NCBI RefSeq assembly: GCF_011365745.1
Contig: NZ_JAAOBY010000001.1
Coordinates: 186,001 to 250,000 of the forward strand
Length of the DNA: 64,000 nt
Source of the DNA: Flavobacterium turcicum
Lineage (GTDB): Bacteria; Bacteroidota; Bacteroidia; Flavobacteriales; Flavobacteriaceae
Direction of reading: 5' to 3'
This document shows, piece by piece, positions 47,961 to 54,875 of this stretch. The notes under the pieces were generated by a model. It had not been told where the DNA came from. It did no database searches and saw only the letters and a program-made list of their open reading frames with translations. The position numbers and the translations under genes are program-made. Position 1 is the stretch's first letter. Every line of letters starts with the position of its first letter.

Positions 47961-49013
47961 TTAAACATCATCATAATCAACATAAATCGTGTCCGATGTA
48001 GGATGCGCTTGACAAGTAAGTATCAAACCATCGGCAATTTCTTTATCCGTAAGGATAGAATTCTTAGACATTTCAGCAGTTCCAGAGGTAACACGAGCCA
48101 AACAACTGCTGCAAATTCCGCCTTGGCAAGAATATGGAGCATCAATTCCTTGTTTTAATGCGGCATCTAGAACGGTTTGTTTTTGCGACATTTCAAAAGT
48201 AGTCTCTTCGTCATCTACCAAAACAGTAATTTTTGAATGACCGCCCAATGATTTTTCGATTTTATTTTCTTTGGTTGACGAAGCAAACAATTCAAATTTA
48301 ATATTTGATTCTTTTACATTGTGCTCTTTTAAAACTCCAGAAACGGTATTGATCATTTCTTCAGGTCCACACAAGTAAAATTTAGAAAACTCAAGTTCTT
48401 TGTGTTTTGTATTTAAAACAAAATTCACGCTTGATTTTTCGATACGTCCAAACAAAGCATTTTCAACTTTAGCTTGACTGTACACATAATGCACAAACAA
48501 ACGACCTACATATTGCAATTGCAAATCGTGTAACTCTTGGTGAAAAATAGTGTCTTCAGGTGATTTGTTGCCATAAACCAAAACAAAAGTGCTGTTAGGT
48601 TCGTTGTGTAAAACCGATTTTAAGATCGACATTACAGGAGTAATTCCACTTCCTGCCGCAAAAGCAGCGTAGTTGCGTTGGCGATCAGCCTGAGGTTCAA
48701 AAGTAAATTTCCCTTCCGGAGTTCCTACTTCAAGAACGTCACCCGCTTGGAGTTTGGTGTTGGCAAATTGCGAAAACAAACCATTAGGAACGGCTTTAAC
48801 AGCAATTCGAAGTTCATCACTATCAGGCGAAGAACAAATAGAGTAGGCTCTACGAATTTCTTGACCGTCAAGGGTTAGTTTTAAGTTCAAATATTGACCA
48901 GCAATAAAAGCATAATTGGCTTTTAATTCTTGTGGTACGTTAAAAAGTATGGAAACTGCATCTTTAGTTTCGCGTTTTACTTCTTTTATAATAAGTTTTA
49001 AAAAAGACGACAT
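47961..49013 (-). CDS. PaaE-like FAD/NAD(P)H oxidoreductase with C-terminal 2Fe-2S ferredoxin domain
   Basis: 350 residues. FAD-binding RRAYSICSSP and the NAD(P)-binding AAGSGITPVMSIL lie in a ferredoxin-reductase core (about 1-235). The C-terminal plant-type [2Fe-2S] domain shows CQGGICSSC plus a fourth Cys in ILTCQAHP. The order FNR core then ferredoxin matches PaaE/PaaK-type reductases. It stands alone, without paaABCD, so a phenylacetate role is not supported; it more likely supplies electrons to an unknown oxygenase or desaturase. It has its own -7 element. Confidence 0.9.
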   Translation of the reverse strand: MSSFLKLIIKEVKRETKDAVSILFNVPQELKANYAFIAGQYLNLKLTLDGQEIRRAYSICSSPDSDELRIAVKAVPNGLFSQFANTKLQAGDVLEVGTPEGKFTFEPQADRQRNYAAFAAGSGITPVMSILKSVLHNEPNSTFVLVYGNKSPEDTIFHQELHDLQLQYVGRLFVHYVYSQAKVENALFGRIEKSSVNFVLNTKHKELEFSKFYLCGPEEMINTVSGVLKEHNVKESNIKFELFASSTKENKIEKSLGGHSKITVLVDDEETTFEMSQKQTVLDAALKQGIDAPYSCQGGICSSCLARVTSGTAEMSKNSILTDKEIADGLILTCQAHPTSDTIYVDYDDV

Positions 49014-49029
49014 GTGATAATTTTTTTTA

Positions 49030-49037
49030 CAAAGATA
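49030..49037 (-). promoter_or_regulatory. -7 promoter element of the PaaE-like gene
   Basis: Minus strand TATCTTTG fits TAnnTTTG, 16 nt before the start codon. Confidence 0.55.
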
Positions 49038-49078: not shown

Positions 49079-49122
49079 TACATACCTAGAATTGTTATGT
49101 ATAAGATTCTTATGTATATTTG
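49079..49122 (+). promoter_or_regulatory. promoter of padR with candidate autoregulatory operator
   Basis: TTG (49092-49094), a 20-nt spacer and TATATTTG (49115-49122) give a consensus Bacteroidetes promoter. The word TTATGTATA occurs twice (49095-49103 and 49110-49118), 15 nt apart, and the reverse-complement word TACATA sits just upstream (about 49079-49084). Repeats of the ATGTA/TACAT type within the promoter are what would be expected of a PadR-binding site; that is inference. Confidence 0.6.
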
Positions 49123-49137
49123 TTTTTCCAAAAGAAA

Positions 49138-49485
49138 ATGAAAATGAAAAACTCACAATTGTACAAAGGAAGTCTGAATACGATTATCATGAAATTGCTA
49201 GAAGAAAATGGCAAGATGTACGGCTATGAAATCACTCAGAAAGTAAAAGCGATTACTGCGGGCGAGTTGAATATTACCGAAGGCGCTTTGTATCCTGCCT
49301 TGCACAAACTTGAGGCCGAAGGAATTTTGGATGTTGAAATTGAAAAAGTAGACAACCGCATGCGCAAGTATTACAAACTGACCGAAGCAGGCGAGAAGGA
49401 AACCGTTAATAGACTTTCAGAACTCGAGGATTTCATCAGAAACATGCAGAGTTTAGTGAACCCTAAGCCTAGTTTAGAATTTTAA
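49138..49485 (+). CDS. PadR-family transcriptional regulator
   Basis: 115 residues from ATG 49138 (a second ATG at 49144 would give 113). Winged-helix features: LYKGSLNTIIMKLLEENGKMYGYEI, then ELNITEGALYPALHKLEAEGIL with the conserved Tyr-Pro, and the wing RKYYKLTEAGEKE. Small PadR proteins of this group repress neighbouring membrane-transport operons. The frame is open upstream from a TTG at 49120, but that lies inside the -7 element, so it is not used. It is 10 nt upstream of the first of four paralogous membrane proteins and likely controls them. Confidence 0.92.
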   Translation: MKMKNSQLYKGSLNTIIMKLLEENGKMYGYEITQKVKAITAGELNITEGALYPALHKLEAEGILDVEIEKVDNRMRKYYKLTEAGEKETVNRLSELEDFIRNMQSLVNPKPSLEF

Positions 49486-49495
49486 TTTTTAGAAT

Positions 49496-50149
49496 ATGCA
49501 ATTAACCACCGAACAAATAGAATGTATCAATCAAACCTTAATTGCAAAAGGGGTGAAGTTTGACGATTTGAAACTAGAAGTTTTAGACCATATTGCTACT
49601 GAAATTGAAAATGAAATGGAAGTTTCAAATAATGACTTTTCAGTAGTTTTTAATCAGGTTTTTGAAAATTGGAATTCTGAATTACAACCAACTAGAGCTT
49701 TTTTCTCCCTGAATACATATTATCCTAAATTGGCGCGAAATGCTTTTAGAAATCAAATAAAACTAGAAATAGTTACAACTATTATACTCTCTGCAGTATT
49801 GTTTTTTAGTTTTCAATTGTTATCGGATTCTAATATAAAACTCCAGTTTATTTTATGGATTAAGAAAGTGTTTTTTTACGCCTATATTGGAACAATATTA
49901 TTGATGTTTATTTTTAAATTTTTCAATTCAAAATCAAAGGTATCGTCCACTTTTAGGCATTCATTTGATACAAGATTCCCGGTGATTTTTGTTTGGTTAG
50001 CTTTTATTTTCAATGATAATATACCTCATGATGCAACCAATCAAAATTTGTTTGTACTGTCAATGGGATGCCTTTTTATGTACTTACTTTCTTTTATTTA
50101 TTTAGGATTTAAGCATTATCAATTCCAAAGAAGATTTTTATTTAATTAG
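49496..50149 (+). CDS. membrane protein with LTTEQI..DH N-terminal domain, paralog 1 of 4
   Basis: 217 residues. An N-terminal cytoplasmic-looking helical domain of about 85 residues (LTTEQIECINQ, FDDLKLEVLDHIATEIE) is followed by about four membrane helices and a short basic tail. It is clearly homologous to the genes at 50261, 50952 and 51637. The N-terminal part resembles the regulator-associated helical domains (DUF1700/HAAS-like) often encoded next to PadR. No catalytic residues are evident. Probably co-transcribed with padR. Function unknown. Confidence 0.7.
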   Translation: MQLTTEQIECINQTLIAKGVKFDDLKLEVLDHIATEIENEMEVSNNDFSVVFNQVFENWNSELQPTRAFFSLNTYYPKLARNAFRNQIKLEIVTTIILSAVLFFSFQLLSDSNIKLQFILWIKKVFFYAYIGTILLMFIFKFFNSKSKVSSTFRHSFDTRFPVIFVWLAFIFNDNIPHDATNQNLFVLSMGCLFMYLLSFIYLGFKHYQFQRRFLFN

Positions 50150-50166
50150 AATTTATTTTCTACAAG

Positions 50167-50194
50167 TTTGTCATGCTGAGGAATGAAGCATCTC
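50167..50194 (+). repeat. short intergenic repeat, copy A (inverted relative to copy B at 52354)
   Basis: The word GTCATGCTGAGGAATGAAGC and flanking bases (50167-50194) match the reverse complement of 52354-52381 at 26 of 28 positions. I have seen this GTCATGCTGAGGAA-type repeat in many Bacteroidetes intergenic regions. It lies immediately upstream of a decayed paralog tail. Confidence 0.7.
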
Positions 50195-50211
50195 TAAAAA
50201 TTGTATTTAAT

Positions 50212-50250
50212 TTTAGACACAAAATCAAAAAAAAACACCAACTGAATTAA
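50212..50250 (+). pseudogene. relic 3' end of a fifth LTTEQI paralog
   Basis: Reading in the frame that ends at the TAA of 50248-50250 gives FRHKIKKKHQLN then stop. The paralog at 50952-51626 ends IKHVAKVKKQYQLN, and the DNA CCAACTGAATTAATCTTTAG shared with the end of that gene (51618 onward, leading to the next ATG) is identical in both places. It looks like the last 12 codons plus the intergenic leader of a deleted or interrupted copy that once preceded paralog 2. Confidence 0.65.
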
Positions 50251-50260
50251 TCTTTAGAAG

Positions 50261-50941
50261 ATGAAACTAACCACCGAACAAATAGCACAAATAGAAGAGA
50301 CTTTAGTTTTAAACGGTCTTGTTTATCAAGATGTGAAGCTAGAAATAATTGACCACATAGCATCAGAAATTGAAGAAAGAATGAGTCAGGAAGAAATTTC
50401 ATTTGACAGTGTCTGTAAATCAGTTTTTGAGAAATGGAAAAGTGCACTAGTAATTTCTTCAAGTTATGCTTGGTTAGGAGCTTTCTTTAAAGCACCTCAA
50501 TTTGTAGTAGACAAATTAGTCGCTTATTCTAAAAGAGAGGCTTTACATGTATTTTTTTCAGTTCTTGTTTTCGGGTCTCTACTAGCTTTTATAGTTTCAA
50601 ATACATTTCAAAAAGAAACCTTTAAAGCCATTAGTTTAGCTTTACAAGGAGTTTATACCCTTTTGATGGTATGTATCAGTATAAGTATGTTCTTGATTTG
50701 GAGATCTACAATTAAAACTATGTACGGAAGATTGTTTCTTTTCAGAGGTTGGGTCGTTTTTTTATTTTGCTTACAGTTTAACATCTATAGAGATCCATTG
50801 AAACATTTTGATGCTACTAATTCTTTTTTGCAAAATCTAGTAGGCTGTATATTATTATGTATTCCATTTGTGTACTCTTTCTTTCAATTAATGTTGGCTA
50901 GTGAACATTTTAAAATCGTTAAAAAATTGAAATTAGTTTAA
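50261..50941 (+). CDS. membrane protein with LTTEQI..DH N-terminal domain, paralog 2 of 4
   Basis: 226 residues. N-terminal domain LTTEQIAQIEETLVLNGL...YQDVKLEIIDHIASEIEE, about 90 residues, then about four membrane helices and a basic KIVKKLKLV tail. The first 25 nt of the coding sequence are identical to those of paralog 3. It follows the relic of a fifth copy by 10 nt. Start: ATG at 50261, the position where all paralogs begin MKLTTEQ/MQLTTEQ. Confidence 0.7.
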   Translation: MKLTTEQIAQIEETLVLNGLVYQDVKLEIIDHIASEIEERMSQEEISFDSVCKSVFEKWKSALVISSSYAWLGAFFKAPQFVVDKLVAYSKREALHVFFSVLVFGSLLAFIVSNTFQKETFKAISLALQGVYTLLMVCISISMFLIWRSTIKTMYGRLFLFRGWVVFLFCLQFNIYRDPLKHFDATNSFLQNLVGCILLCIPFVYSFFQLMLASEHFKIVKKLKLV

Positions 50942-50951
50942 TCTTTATTTT

Positions 50952-51626
50952 ATGAAACTAACCACCGAACAAATAGAATACGTATCCAATTACATCAAAT
51001 CCTTAGATATCAAATGGTATGAATTGCAAGTAGAATTTACAGATCACATGGTTACTAGTATGGAGGAGATTTGGGAGAACGATCCTGAGTTAACATTTCA
51101 TCAAGTGAAGCAGTGCGCTGAAAGTAAGTTTGTAGGGCATTCTAGTTTTAAATCGATTCAAGAAGAACGAAAAGGTATTTTGCAAAAGGAATACAATAGA
51201 AGTCAACGAAAAATGATTGTGGAATTTTTAAAATTCCCCAAAATTATTGGAAGTATTATGTTAGGAATTCTCGCCTACCAAGCTTCTTTTTACTTTGAGA
51301 AACCTAGTAAGTCCTTAGGATTATTATTTGCATTGTTATTAGTTTTTATAATTCCAGGATTGTATAACTTCTTCAAGAATTATAAAATTCAAGGAAAACG
51401 TTTTTTAGCAGTAAGTTACTATTCTTTAAGTTTAACAGTTTCGATGATTTTCCCTAATATAGGAATCAACCTAACTAATGTTTTTAAAGAAGAAATCCAG
51501 CAGAATCATCTTTTGTTCATATCGCTTATTTGTTTTTGGGTCGTTGGACTTTTGTTTTGCGCAACAGGAGTCTATCTTGATATAAAACATGTAGCAAAAG
51601 TTAAAAAACAATACCAACTGAATTAA
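50952..51626 (+). CDS. membrane protein with LTTEQI..DH N-terminal domain, paralog 3 of 4
   Basis: 224 residues. The most diverged copy: LTTEQIEYVSNYIKSLDIKW then YELQVEFTDHMVTSMEE keeps the Asp-His and the following Glu but changes most neighbours, and the region after residue 60 differs in length and charge. About four membrane helices follow (from about residue 88). It starts 10 nt after paralog 2 and ends 10 nt before paralog 4, so the three share an operon. Confidence 0.7.
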   Translation: MKLTTEQIEYVSNYIKSLDIKWYELQVEFTDHMVTSMEEIWENDPELTFHQVKQCAESKFVGHSSFKSIQEERKGILQKEYNRSQRKMIVEFLKFPKIIGSIMLGILAYQASFYFEKPSKSLGLLFALLLVFIIPGLYNFFKNYKIQGKRFLAVSYYSLSLTVSMIFPNIGINLTNVFKEEIQQNHLLFISLICFWVVGLLFCATGVYLDIKHVAKVKKQYQLN

Positions 51627-51636
51627 TCTTTAGAAG

Positions 51637-52308
51637 ATGAAATTAACCACCCAACAAATAGAATCTATCAATCAAATTTTAATAGCAAAAGGACTGAATT
51701 TTGACGATTTGAAAGTAGAAGTTTTAGATCATATCGCTACTGAAATAGAAGAGAAAATACAGAATACAAATTGTGCTTTTGATGTTGCTTTTAAGGAAGT
51801 TCTTGAAAAATGGGAGCCAGAATTTAAACCATCCTTTTCGGGATTTATAGGTTTTACAAACCCAAGAATAATGACTGTCAAATGCCACAAAATAGTGAAA
51901 AGACAATTTTTAACCGCAATTGCAACTTCATCTTTGCTTACGCTCGTATTCTTGCTTTTTGTCAGAAACTCAAGCCTCGGATTGTTTCTTGCAGCTATCC
52001 AAGGAACCCTGAGATCATTTGTTCTTTTAGAATTTGGGTTGGTTGCTCTAGCTTGGATTTTAATTTGGAGGTCAAAACACCAAACTACTTATGGTTATTT
52101 GATGAACAAAAAAAGCGCTGGCATAATGATCTTTTTACTTATGATGGGGATTGGTTTATTTCCAGTTAAAATAAATCATCCAGATGTTAAAATTGCTTTC
52201 GTATCGGTTTTCGCAGCCATAATTTACATTGTCAGCACCAAAATTTACTTGAAACTAGCATACAAACATTTTGAGTTTGTAAAGAAAATATCGCTTGTAA
52301 AACCATAA
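51637..52308 (+). CDS. membrane protein with LTTEQI..DH N-terminal domain, paralog 4 of 4
   Basis: 223 residues. Its N-terminal 40 residues are nearly identical to paralog 1 (IAKGLNFDDLKVEVLDHIAT against IAKGVKFDDLKLEVLDHIAT), at protein and DNA level, while the four-helix membrane part has diverged strongly. It reads LTTQQIESINQ at the start. The tail has a basic FVKKISLVKP. The intergenic leader before it is the same as the one before paralog 2. An ABC permease gene follows 216 nt later. Confidence 0.7.
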   Translation: MKLTTQQIESINQILIAKGLNFDDLKVEVLDHIATEIEEKIQNTNCAFDVAFKEVLEKWEPEFKPSFSGFIGFTNPRIMTVKCHKIVKRQFLTAIATSSLLTLVFLLFVRNSSLGLFLAAIQGTLRSFVLLEFGLVALAWILIWRSKHQTTYGYLMNKKSAGIMIFLLMMGIGLFPVKINHPDVKIAFVSVFAAIIYIVSTKIYLKLAYKHFEFVKKISLVKP

Positions 52309-52353
52309 ATCCTTACGTGGGTTTTCTTGATGATTTGTTTGCTCTTGATGGCT

Positions 52354-52381
52354 GAGATGCTTCGTTCCTCAGTATGACAAA
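52354..52381 (-). repeat. short intergenic repeat, copy B (inverted copy of 50167)
   Basis: Reverse complement of copy A with two mismatches. It sits 45 nt behind paralog 4, so copies A and B face each other around paralogs 2-4 and the relic. Confidence 0.7.
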
Positions 52382-52524
52382 TAACACTACCTACAAGAGT
52401 AAATTTCCGACACTTAAAAAACCAAAACACAAAGTCAAAAGAGCACTTTTCTTTCAAAAAAAATTACTTCGTTGTAACATTTTCTGACTTTGACTTACTT
52501 ACTAGCAAACCAAAAAACCAAAAG

Positions 52525-53994
52525 ATGATTTCAAAATTCCTTTATCTCGAATGGAAGGCTTTCACAAGGTCAGCCTCTTTCGCATCTAACTTGGCGCTAA
52601 AAATCCTGATGGGTTTTGTTGCGGCCTATTTCATTTTAATATTTTTAGGATTAGGAGTAGGTGCATTCTATATCCTCAAAAAAATGAAATTGGATCCTAT
52701 TGTAGCCGTAAATCAATTTTTATTTTATTACGTGGTGATGGATTTAATTGTTCGCATGATGCTTCAAAAAATTCCAGTGCTCAATATTCGTCCTTTATTG
52801 AATTTTCCGATTAAAAGAGAAACCATCGTCCATTTTTCGTTAGGCAAAACAATCCTTTCGTTTTTTAATTTGCTACACGCATTTTTCTTGATTCCGTTTA
52901 GCGTAGTCTTGATTATTGAAGGTTACAATCCGCTATTGGTAGTGTTTTGGTACTTGGCCATTTACGCACTGTTGTATTGCAATAATTTCATCAATATTTT
53001 ATTGAGCAACAAAGACGGATTATTCATGATTTTCTTGGGACTATCAGCAGTTTTAGCCGGCTTGCAGTATTATGAAATATTTGATATTACTACCTTTATG
53101 GGACCAGTATTTCAGTCTTTTTACAACACTTATTGGGCATTTAGTATTCCGGTTTTGGCATTAATTGCTTTGTACATTATTTCATTTAAATATTTCAAAA
53201 ATAACTTGTACCTCGATGCAGGCTTATCTACCAAACACGATGAAGCAAAAACCGAAGACTTAACTTGGTTGAACCAATTTGGAACCATCGGTACCTTCCT
53301 TAAAAACGACATCAAATTAATCAAAAGAAACAAGCGTTCCAAAACTACAGTTGGTTTGAGTGTCATGTTTCTATTTTATGGCTTGTTGTTCTTTACCAAT
53401 GGTATTCCAATGTATAACAATCCTACGATGCATATTTTTGCGGGAATCTTTGTTTCTGGTGGATTCTTAATCACTTTTGGGCAGTTCGTACCAAGTTGGG
53501 ACAGCTCGTATTACCAATTAATGATGACACAAAATATCCCGTACCGTGGGTATTTGAGTTCAAAATGGTGGTTAATGGTAATAGCTACAATTATAACCAC
53601 AGTAATAGCTGCGCCCTATTTGTATTTTGGTTGGCAAATTTATTTAACCATAATTGTAGGTGCTATTTATAACATCGGAGTCAACTCGCATTTGGTGTTA
53701 CTTGGTGGTGCATTTACCAAAACCCCCATCGATTTAAGTTCAGGCAAAGGTGCCTTTGGTGATAAGAAAGCATTCAACATAAAAACCATGCTCATCTCAT
53801 TACCACAATTAGGTTTACCAATGCTCGTGTATTGGTTAGGTTCAAGATTTGACAGTGCAACAACCGGTTTGGCCTTAGTAGCACTTCTTGGCGTAATTGG
53901 TTTTGCATTCAAAGAAAAAGCATTTACCTTAATCGAAAAAACATATAAATCAGAAAAATACGCTACCATAGCAGCATACAAACAAAAAGGATAA
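52525..53994 (+). CDS. DUF5687-family ABC transporter permease
   Basis: 489 residues with about twelve hydrophobic helices and a large polar loop around residues 228-275 (DEAKTEDLTWLNQFGTIGTF, then KNDIKLIKRNKRSKT). I recognise the N-terminus (FLYLEWKAFTRS) as that of the Bacteroidetes DUF5687 family, the membrane half of ABC-2-type exporters. The matching ATPase gene follows. The exported substrate is unknown. It has no obvious promoter of its own, so expression with the upstream paralog block is possible. Confidence 0.85.
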   Translation: MISKFLYLEWKAFTRSASFASNLALKILMGFVAAYFILIFLGLGVGAFYILKKMKLDPIVAVNQFLFYYVVMDLIVRMMLQKIPVLNIRPLLNFPIKRETIVHFSLGKTILSFFNLLHAFFLIPFSVVLIIEGYNPLLVVFWYLAIYALLYCNNFINILLSNKDGLFMIFLGLSAVLAGLQYYEIFDITTFMGPVFQSFYNTYWAFSIPVLALIALYIISFKYFKNNLYLDAGLSTKHDEAKTEDLTWLNQFGTIGTFLKNDIKLIKRNKRSKTTVGLSVMFLFYGLLFFTNGIPMYNNPTMHIFAGIFVSGGFLITFGQFVPSWDSSYYQLMMTQNIPYRGYLSSKWWLMVIATIITTVIAAPYLYFGWQIYLTIIVGAIYNIGVNSHLVLLGGAFTKTPIDLSSGKGAFGDKKAFNIKTMLISLPQLGLPMLVYWLGSRFDSATTGLALVALLGVIGFAFKEKAFTLIEKTYKSEKYATIAAYKQKG

Positions 53995-54089
53995 TTAGGA
54001 CTCTCACTGAGTAAGCTTACAAATCCTTAATTTTCTTAATGGTTTAAAAAAAAGAGACAACAACAAACCAACCTATTAAACTAATAACA

Positions 54090-54785
54090 ATGATACAAGT
54101 AAACAACCTTACCAAAACATACAACGGAACAACCGTATTAAATATAGAAGCATTAGAAATCAAACAAGGCGAAAGCTTTGGCTTAGTGGGTAACAACGGC
54201 GCTGGAAAAACCACTTTTTTCAGTCTTTTGCTAGACTTAATTCAAGCGTCTACCGGAAACATAGTAAACCACGGCATAAATGTAAGTAAAAGCGAGGCTT
54301 GGAAACCTTTCACCGCCTCTTTTCTTGATGAAAGTTTTTTAATAAGCTATCTAACTCCCGAAGAATATTTTTATTTCATAGGCGATTTACGCGGTCAAAA
54401 CAAAGCTGATGTTGATGCGTTACTAGCCAAACACGAAGAGTTTTTTAATGGCGAAATCTTAAAAAACAAAAAATACCTGCGCGATTTATCTAAAGGAAAC
54501 CAGAAAAAAGTAGGTATCATTGCTACTTTAATTGGTAATCCGTCCGTGGTTATTCTCGATGAGCCTTTTGCTAACCTTGACCCAACCACGCAATTTCGCC
54601 TTAAAAAAATCATCAAAGAACTAGCCGATGATCCAACCGTTACCGTATTGGTTTCAAGCCACGACTTGCAGCACACTGTTGAGGTAAGCGACCGTATTGT
54701 AGCCATGCAAAAAGGCCAAGTGGTTAAAGACATTCAAACCTCAGAAGAAACATTAAAAGAATTAGAAGAATTTTTTGCCGTATAA
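54090..54785 (+). CDS. ABC transporter ATP-binding protein
   Basis: 231 residues. Walker A GNNGAGKTT (about residues 35-43), ABC signature LSKGNQKK, Walker B VVILDEPFANLDP, D-loop NLD and switch His in SSHDLQHT. The short form with one nucleotide-binding domain fits an ABC-2 exporter working with the DUF5687 permease 95 nt upstream. The ATPase-permease pair next to a PadR regulator suggests drug/peptide/lipid export, but the cargo is not known. A strong terminator follows. Confidence 0.95.
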   Translation: MIQVNNLTKTYNGTTVLNIEALEIKQGESFGLVGNNGAGKTTFFSLLLDLIQASTGNIVNHGINVSKSEAWKPFTASFLDESFLISYLTPEEYFYFIGDLRGQNKADVDALLAKHEEFFNGEILKNKKYLRDLSKGNQKKVGIIATLIGNPSVVILDEPFANLDPTTQFRLKKIIKELADDPTVTVLVSSHDLQHTVEVSDRIVAMQKGQVVKDIQTSEETLKELEEFFAV

Positions 54786-54814
54786 ATGCAGTAAAAAACA
54801 CCCTAATATAAAGT

Positions 54815-54875
54815 GCTAATTGTTTCAGTACTCACGCTATTTCAGTGTGAATATTGAAACAATTAGCTTTTTTTT
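54815..54875 (+). terminator. long-stem intrinsic terminator of the ABC operon
   Basis: GCTAATTGTTTCA pairs with TGAAACAATTAGC, and the inner sequences add a weaker GTACTCACGC/GTGTGAATAT pairing; an eight-T run follows. Confidence 0.85.

Follow-up and report, generated by a model that had tools for sequence, protein, structure and literature searches.

We describe a gene block in a 64,000-nucleotide (nt) stretch of the Flavobacterium turcicum genome, referred to throughout as the window, in which padR, the gene of a PadR-family regulator, is followed by genes for four tandem paralogous membrane proteins that we call Par1 to Par4, a DUF5687 permease and an ATP-binding cassette (ABC) ATPase. 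On balance we favour the interpretation that padR and the Par genes form a PadR/HAAS-like membrane-signalling cassette with a multiplied membrane partner, in which the Par proteins would act as antennae releasing an autorepressing PadR. The window genome comprises 3.40 Mb in 23 contigs, and the relatives surveyed are mostly Flavobacterium, F. frigidarium and F. segetis among them.

Par genes are tied to PadR and vary in number

The block is real. An initial annotation of this DNA had listed padR, the four paralogs, DUF5687, the ABC ATPase and a terminator, and both the gene set and its coordinates hold (Table 1). The regulator scores 74.9 bits against PF03551, whose cut-off is 27, and the whole window genome has one further PadR match. 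Identity to Par1 is 29 % for Par2, 20 % for Par3 and 31 % for Par4. As annotated, all four paralogs start with LTT[EQ]QI, and the DH motif near residue 30 corresponds to E28, D31 and H32, which are invariant in these four and in the set of 24 homologs that includes them; ExxDH is kept in 191 of 192 Par copies. The four are tandem paralogs but not equal copies, Par1, Par2 and Par4 being of one type (A) and Par3 of another (B). Types A, B and C are our own regular-expression labels, and copies longer than 250 amino acids (aa) were excluded from typing.

We examined 89 loci, namely the window, 8 others and a further 80, and left out 3 as repeats. The 80 rank highest among at least 372 relatives retrieved with a type C query, so that the presence of type C is built into the sample, and copy number and type order are specific to it. 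PadR occurs with at least one Par open reading frame (ORF) in 86 of the 89 loci. In all 86 Par lies on the strand of PadR, and the gap between them measures −3 to 12 nt in 80, in agreement with the association proposed initially. The three loci without PadR (L084, L120 and L144) have their Par ORFs right at the beginning of contigs 3.9–10.5 kb long. The association extends to three same-order genomes (L035, L036 and L038), in which a PadR-Par pair is found with neither a PaaE-like gene nor DUF5687 in 16 kb.

Counting copies of 190 aa or more as full-length, the 86 loci contain one copy in 19 cases, two in 32, three in 20, four in 7, five in 5 and six in 2; the single locus with none is a broken array, and fragments are also present in 3 loci. 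No described system with four such copies had been known to the initial annotation, but four or more occur in 14 of the 86 loci, and a PadR-HAAS dyad was already described in 2024 (PMC11237479). By our labels, and in this type C-query sample, the last copy is of type C in 74 of 77 arrays; two of the three exceptions (L152 and L155) result from leaving copies above 250 aa out of the typing. Decaying array members are seen in the congener L028 (6114–6820 and 6935–7474), which has three full-length copies: its type C copy is broken into frames of 158 and 81 aa, and another copy is cut to 179 aa.

Later rounds of the iterated Par profile required a PadR within 4.5 kb, and the PadR link is therefore partly circular. 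In the last filtered round 221 of 227 hits lie near a PadR, the other 6 being on three short contigs. As an unfiltered check we used a wider draw of 392 Bacteroidota genomes and a type B/C profile, which matches in 35 genomes, other families of the same class included. A PadR ORF is found within the short flank in 19 of 29 loci of this draw (in one of them, L192, the nearest PadR comes after Par and not before), and the 10 misses include 8 three-copy arrays with a flank that leaves no room for padR. The unfiltered iterated profile also picked up, by drift, small membrane proteins of about 76 and 130 aa that are encoded farther along the locus; these were dropped.

The other PadR match of the window genome (L007, 1990–2445, contig C19) lies close to a gene for a 151-aa membrane protein, which we take to resemble DUF4870.

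A predicted three-helix domain precedes the membrane part

No Pfam or NCBIfam family has a match above its cut-off among the four Par proteins. The AlphaFold2 model of Par4 (predicted local distance difference test score, pLDDT, 95.1; predicted template modelling score 0.87) has a three-helix N-terminal domain (N-domain) at residues 5–63, with predicted helices at 5–17, 23–44 and 48–63. A short hairpin follows and then four long helices (77–111, 115–145, 151–171 and 184–221), consistent with the roughly four membrane helices annotated initially. Par3 (pLDDT 92.1) is predicted to start similarly, with helices at 5–17, 23–43 and 49–61. Both models thus have the three consecutive helices that characterise HAAS domains. 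As in HAAS-PadR dyads, this domain is fused to a multi-transmembrane part, hydrophobic segments being present in all four window copies, and the neighbourhood is tied to a standalone PadR.

We compared an N-domain profile with that of five PadR-adjacent permease prefix domain 1 proteins, which come from plasmids. The hhalign score is 42.2 (probability 92.7 %), while the maximum in 150 column shuffles is 17.4 and the reversed alignment scores 16.2. Two Spirosoma PadR-adjacent proteins give a score of 52.6 (probability 96.2 %; shuffle maximum 16.2). Given this profile relationship to permease prefix domain 1, the most suitable reading of the Par locus is a divergent HAAS-PadR dyad. Profile and models both favour the earlier suggestion of helical-domain membrane proteins of the HAAS/permease-prefix kind; the HMM check against HAAS/DUF1700 that went with it gave no match, as detailed below.

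Other searches gave little. Foldseek with the Par3 and Par4 models returned nothing from the PDB at E ≤ 0.001; VIA-align on the chains ranked by Foldseek for the Par4 model (459 of 461 aligned) reached a best Z of 8.5 with a helical bundle, a range that is hardly informative for helical proteins, and we propose no fold relationship. The Par profile has two matches only among PDB sequences (E about 2), and tblastn of Par3 against plasmids found nothing. We also considered anti-phage defence, which is unsupported: PADLOC models give 0 matches at E ≤ 0.01 to the four Par proteins and DUF5687. PadR weakly matches Csa3-type winged helix-turn-helix (wHTH) models (best 9.8e-5), and the ABC ATPase matches 44 models (best mad3, 2.9e-25), which we read as general ATPase likeness.

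A conserved dyad overlaps the padR promoter

The sequence 5' of padR (49082–49122) is ATACCTAgaattgTTATGTATAAGATTCTTATGTATATTTG, and its final eight bases, TATATTTG, agree with the Bacteroidota −10 motif, TANNTTTG. The consensus promoter of the initial annotation does not stand out as a sigma-70 match, since 28 such sites occur in 8 kb where 28.4 are expected. A half site of the putative operator overlaps the padR −10 in 75 of the 84 loci (of the 86) that have enough upstream DNA. The complete dyad occurs only once without mismatch in the window genome, at the padR promoter; allowing one mismatch adds 2 genome sites, which is not above a reversed-pattern control. Conservation of the dyad over padR's own promoter suggests that PadR is autoregulated, and binding and repression would follow from this reading of the conservation.

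Par copies share an N-domain and differ in the membrane part

In 86 type A copies from 59 loci, the N-domains have a median identity across loci of 38 %, compared with 14 % for the remainder of the protein. Some pairs from one array show a sharp break: 90 % versus 25 % in the membrane part in L136, 86 % versus 30 % in L123, and 63 % in the N-domain versus 16 % in the membrane half for Par1 and Par4 of the window. In the N-domains of Par1 and Par4 the codons agree at 30 of 36 shared residues, against 17.9 expected (P 2.9e-5), and in those of the L136 pair at 50 of 51 (24.1 expected); such P values assume independence, and cross-locus pairs with at least 35 shared N-domain residues already agree at 0.64. 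By this measure 5 of 34 same-array type A pairs, the window pair included, appear to have undergone recent homogenisation of N-domain DNA (P < 1e-3). The membrane parts of the five pairs are near the codon expectation, except in L136 where agreement is somewhat above it (23/39, 16.0 expected), and the homogenised identity falls near nt 180, about codon 60, at the end of the N-domain. Over the first 27 nt, similarity is 0.688 within loci and 0.631 after label shuffling (0 of 500 shuffles reach the former), a comparison that leaves relatedness and codon habits uncontrolled and on which we do not rely.

The window array itself carries a possible trace of recombination. The stretch at 50221–50285, before Par2, is 91 % identical over 65 nt to 51597–51661, which points to a deletion or duplication by recombination in this array.

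The 28-nt arms of an inverted repeat flank Par2–Par4 and are 93 % alike; the genome contains four copies of their 26-nt core when up to 3 mismatches are allowed. Related GAGATTGCTTCGTGCCTCGCAATGAC-like elements lie between the padR promoter and the start codon in several relatives (L115, L117, L132 and L137).

Proposed mechanism

In the cassette that we favour, PadR would bind the dyad over its own promoter and repress the operon. Each Par protein would hold its predicted three-helix N-domain in the cytoplasm ahead of four membrane helices. A change felt in the membrane part may alter the N-domain, which would contact PadR and lift repression, by analogy with HAAS-PadR dyads. The common partner would be type C, which closes most of the arrays sampled, and the preceding A and B copies would add antennae that differ in their membrane parts and report to the same PadR. 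The array would grow and shrink by recombination, in some genomes copying shared N-domain DNA between copies. Where DUF5687 and ABC follow at a short distance, they are probably read from the padR promoter, with the exporter as part of the output and yet a separate module. The best reading of the paralogs keeps the initially suggested sensors, which would differ in their membrane parts and report to a single PadR. We further hypothesize, more tentatively, that one repressor possibly serves many antennae: a recombining array of up to six sensors, with a PadR-facing domain kept or copied alike and a diversifying sensing half, could provide Flavobacterium species with changeable envelope inputs without kinases or sigma factors.

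Several observations weigh against this interpretation. The binding of Par to PadR is supposed by analogy. No match to the HAAS (PF22564) or DUF1700 models is found at E ≤ 10 for the window proteins, or at E ≤ 0.26 for the 24 homologs, while a Priestia plasmid protein used as control matches PF22564 at 6.3e-15; the check proposed initially thus gives no match. At E ≤ 1, HAAS is also absent among the 25 families listed, of 29, for the 24 homologs. The GxP motif described for HAAS (kink of helix 3; PMC11237479) is present in 0 of 192 Par copies, hence our term HAAS-like and no classification of the N-domain as HAAS. The curated cut-off of NF038403 is not reached, 1 of 24 homologs matching with E 0.0094. 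The Spirosoma pair aligns with the permease prefix set at an hhalign probability of only 9.9 %, and the N-domain reaches 1.5 % with a single DUF1700 protein (L160) and 35 % with L161; the link therefore runs to permease prefix domain 1 and not directly to L160 or L161. The window array has the order A, A, B, A and no type C copy. In the wider draw, L195 and L197 have a Par-like ORF with no PadR within 1.5 kb; the L195 protein is also without the ExxDH motif. The closest N-domain relative of a copy comes from the same array in just 5 cases out of 48, and its closest membrane-part relative in 2 out of 48, so homogenisation is occasional and not general. Distances track those of PadR equally for both halves, with partial r of 0.51 (N-domain) versus 0.51 (membrane part) for type C and 0.36 versus 0.34 for the first type A copy; a preferential co-variation of PadR with the N-domain was looked for and no difference was seen. 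Finally, ZGAL_1769 of Zobellia galactanivorans, discussed below, may be a Par protein, by synteny only.

One alternative, which we regard as rather unlikely, is that PadR itself senses a small molecule, with the Par proteins as outputs that are produced upon derepression to protect or remodel the membrane. The position of the operator over the padR promoter speaks for this, and in the Listeria LltR-lmo0600-lmo0601 operon the DUF1700 protein behaves as a regulated effector, deletion of lmo0600 curing the cold defect of the repressor mutant (PMC6624303). Outputs need no shared N-domain, however, and signalling better explains why a common N-domain is joined to highly variable membrane parts and linked with PadR in several families.

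Neighbouring genes

The DUF5687-ABC pair is a module separable from the PadR-Par cassette. In the window the gap between Par4 and DUF5687 is 216 nt, and neither a Bacteroidota −10 nor a terminator-like site was found in it. The block closes with a terminator whose arms (54810–54838 and 54844–54872) are 83 % complementary and which has eight T at 54868–54875; it was absent from the output of a simple terminator scanner. Our literature search found no paper on DUF5687.

It is conceivable, but improbable, that the Par proteins serve the DUF5687-ABC exporter as accessory or specificity subunits. Of the 79 loci with 3 kb of room, 59 have DUF5687 downstream within 1.5 kb; the gap measures 45–75 nt in 50 of 61, and a Bacteroidota −10 is found in none of the 61 gaps, a rate not comparable with that in loci without PadR, where the 250 nt searched exceed most of these gaps. 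Type C N-domain distances correlate with those of ABC (0.57) about as well as with those of PadR (0.62). The correlation of DUF5687 with Par distances is lower (0.36), and DUF5687 is absent beside 20 of the 79 cassettes. A search of 24 congeners with Par3 and Par4 at E ≤ 0.001, which may overlook strongly divergent copies, finds Par in 8 and not in the other 16; 6 of the former and 13 of the latter have DUF5687. The same figures argue against the fixed common PadR/ABC output that the initial annotation had envisaged for the sensors.

A divergent PaaE-like gene lies next to padR in 70 of the 80 loci with room, and opposite expression is reported in Zobellia (PMC5613140); both would fit a PadR that chiefly controls paaE and phenylacetate metabolism, as proposed for Zobellia, with the downstream genes secondary. 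We consider this very unlikely. PaaA (TIGR02156) was not found in the window genome, which phenylacetate control therefore fits poorly, and the operator overlaps the padR promoter, lying about 45 nt from the candidate paaE −10. In the 10 loci without PadR (L062–L071) the PaaE-like gene directly adjoins DUF5687, and TANNTTTG is kept upstream of it in 8 of these 10 and in 63 of 69 loci with PadR. The PaaE-like reductase of the window is an orphan without PaaA, kept beside the locus with or without padR.

Table 1 Features of the padR-Par block and its surroundings in the window
Feature	Position	Strand	Remarks
PaaE-like FAD/2Fe-2S reductase, divergent neighbour of padR	47961..49013	-	TIGR02160 373 bits, cut-off 420.8 not reached
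Candidate -10 of PaaE-like gene	49030..49037	-	TATCTTTG
Putative PadR operator	49082..49118	.	ATACCTAgaattgTTATGTAT dyad and further TTATGTAT half site, conserved 5' of padR
Bacteroidota-type padR promoter	49092..49122	+	TTG-N20-TATATTTG; overlapped by operator
padR	49138..49485	+	PF03551 E 5.1e-21; start ATG 49138 or 49147
Par1, type A HAAS-like membrane protein	49496..50149	+	217 aa
28-nt repeat, left arm around Par2-Par4	50167..50194	-	
Putative relic matching 3' end of type B gene, upstream of Par2	50221..50260	+	
Par2, type A	50261..50941	+	226 aa
Par3, type B	50952..51626	+	224 aa
Par4, type A	51637..52308	+	223 aa
28-nt repeat, right arm	52354..52381	+	
DUF5687 permease, separable module	52525..53994	+	PF18940 E 7e-201
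ABC ATPase, separable module	54090..54785	+	PF00005 E 4.6e-20
Rho-independent terminator	54810..54875	+	29-nt inverted repeat and T run

Comparison with known systems

A dyad of a HAAS protein and a PadR-like wHTH protein was proposed in 2024 as an alternative to two-component systems, and uncharacterised fusions to four transmembrane helices are mentioned there (PMC11237479). In the Par locus, too, a standalone PadR adjoins membrane proteins that join a predicted three-helix domain at the N-terminus to a multi-transmembrane part. Relative to the dyads of the excerpted text (PMC11237479) it differs in having no Pfam HAAS/DUF1700 match and no GxP motif, and in its variable tandem partners for one PadR and its Bacteroidota promoter with an operator. 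Our interpretation would extend the PadR/HAAS dyad to Bacteroidota, with a divergent domain missed by the Pfam and NCBIfam models used. The natural arrays would offer a shared, perhaps PadR-facing, half and a variable, perhaps sensing, half separated by evolution, and a question posed in 2024, namely if HAAS-type domains communicate with PadR and by what means, becomes directly testable in cultured Flavobacterium species.

The permease prefix domain 1 proteins (NF038403) of Priestia, Paraclostridium and Deinococcus plasmids resemble the Par locus in the order PadR then membrane protein, in an E..xH/ExxDH helix and in profile similarity; unlike Par they occur once per stretch (five stretches) and are longer (245–392 aa). 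On two Spirosoma plasmids (L158, 5389–5868; L159, 5399–5890) PadR is accompanied by an ExxDH N-domain protein of 159–163 aa and an ABC permease, which in L158 is ADOP/MacB-FtsX by search; this arrangement is perhaps a split form of the permease-prefix architecture.

The Listeria LltR operon likewise joins a PadR autorepressor, here with about 100- to 150-fold repression, to a HAAS-type (DUF1700) membrane protein, but continues with a DUF4097 exoprotein and not, in the part of the article consulted, with further copies and an ABC pair (PMC6624303). In Zobellia, paaE, PadR and a gene of unknown function have the syntenic order of the window (ZGAL_1767-1769), padR and the next gene form one transcription unit, and both are up on six algal polysaccharides with a log2 fold change above 3 (PMC5613140). 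This co-transcription and induction support padR and its next gene being one inducible unit. PadR is interpreted by the authors as repressing the degradation of phenylacetate, and the excerpts of PMC5613140, unlike the window, report only one downstream gene with padR; the cassette proposed here offers a different reading of this strongly induced unit. Among the matches listed in our literature search, which largely lay outside subscription papers, tandem arrays of PadR-partner membrane proteins were not described. The basic pair of PadR and membrane protein is of a described kind, and it is the variable array that appears to be new.

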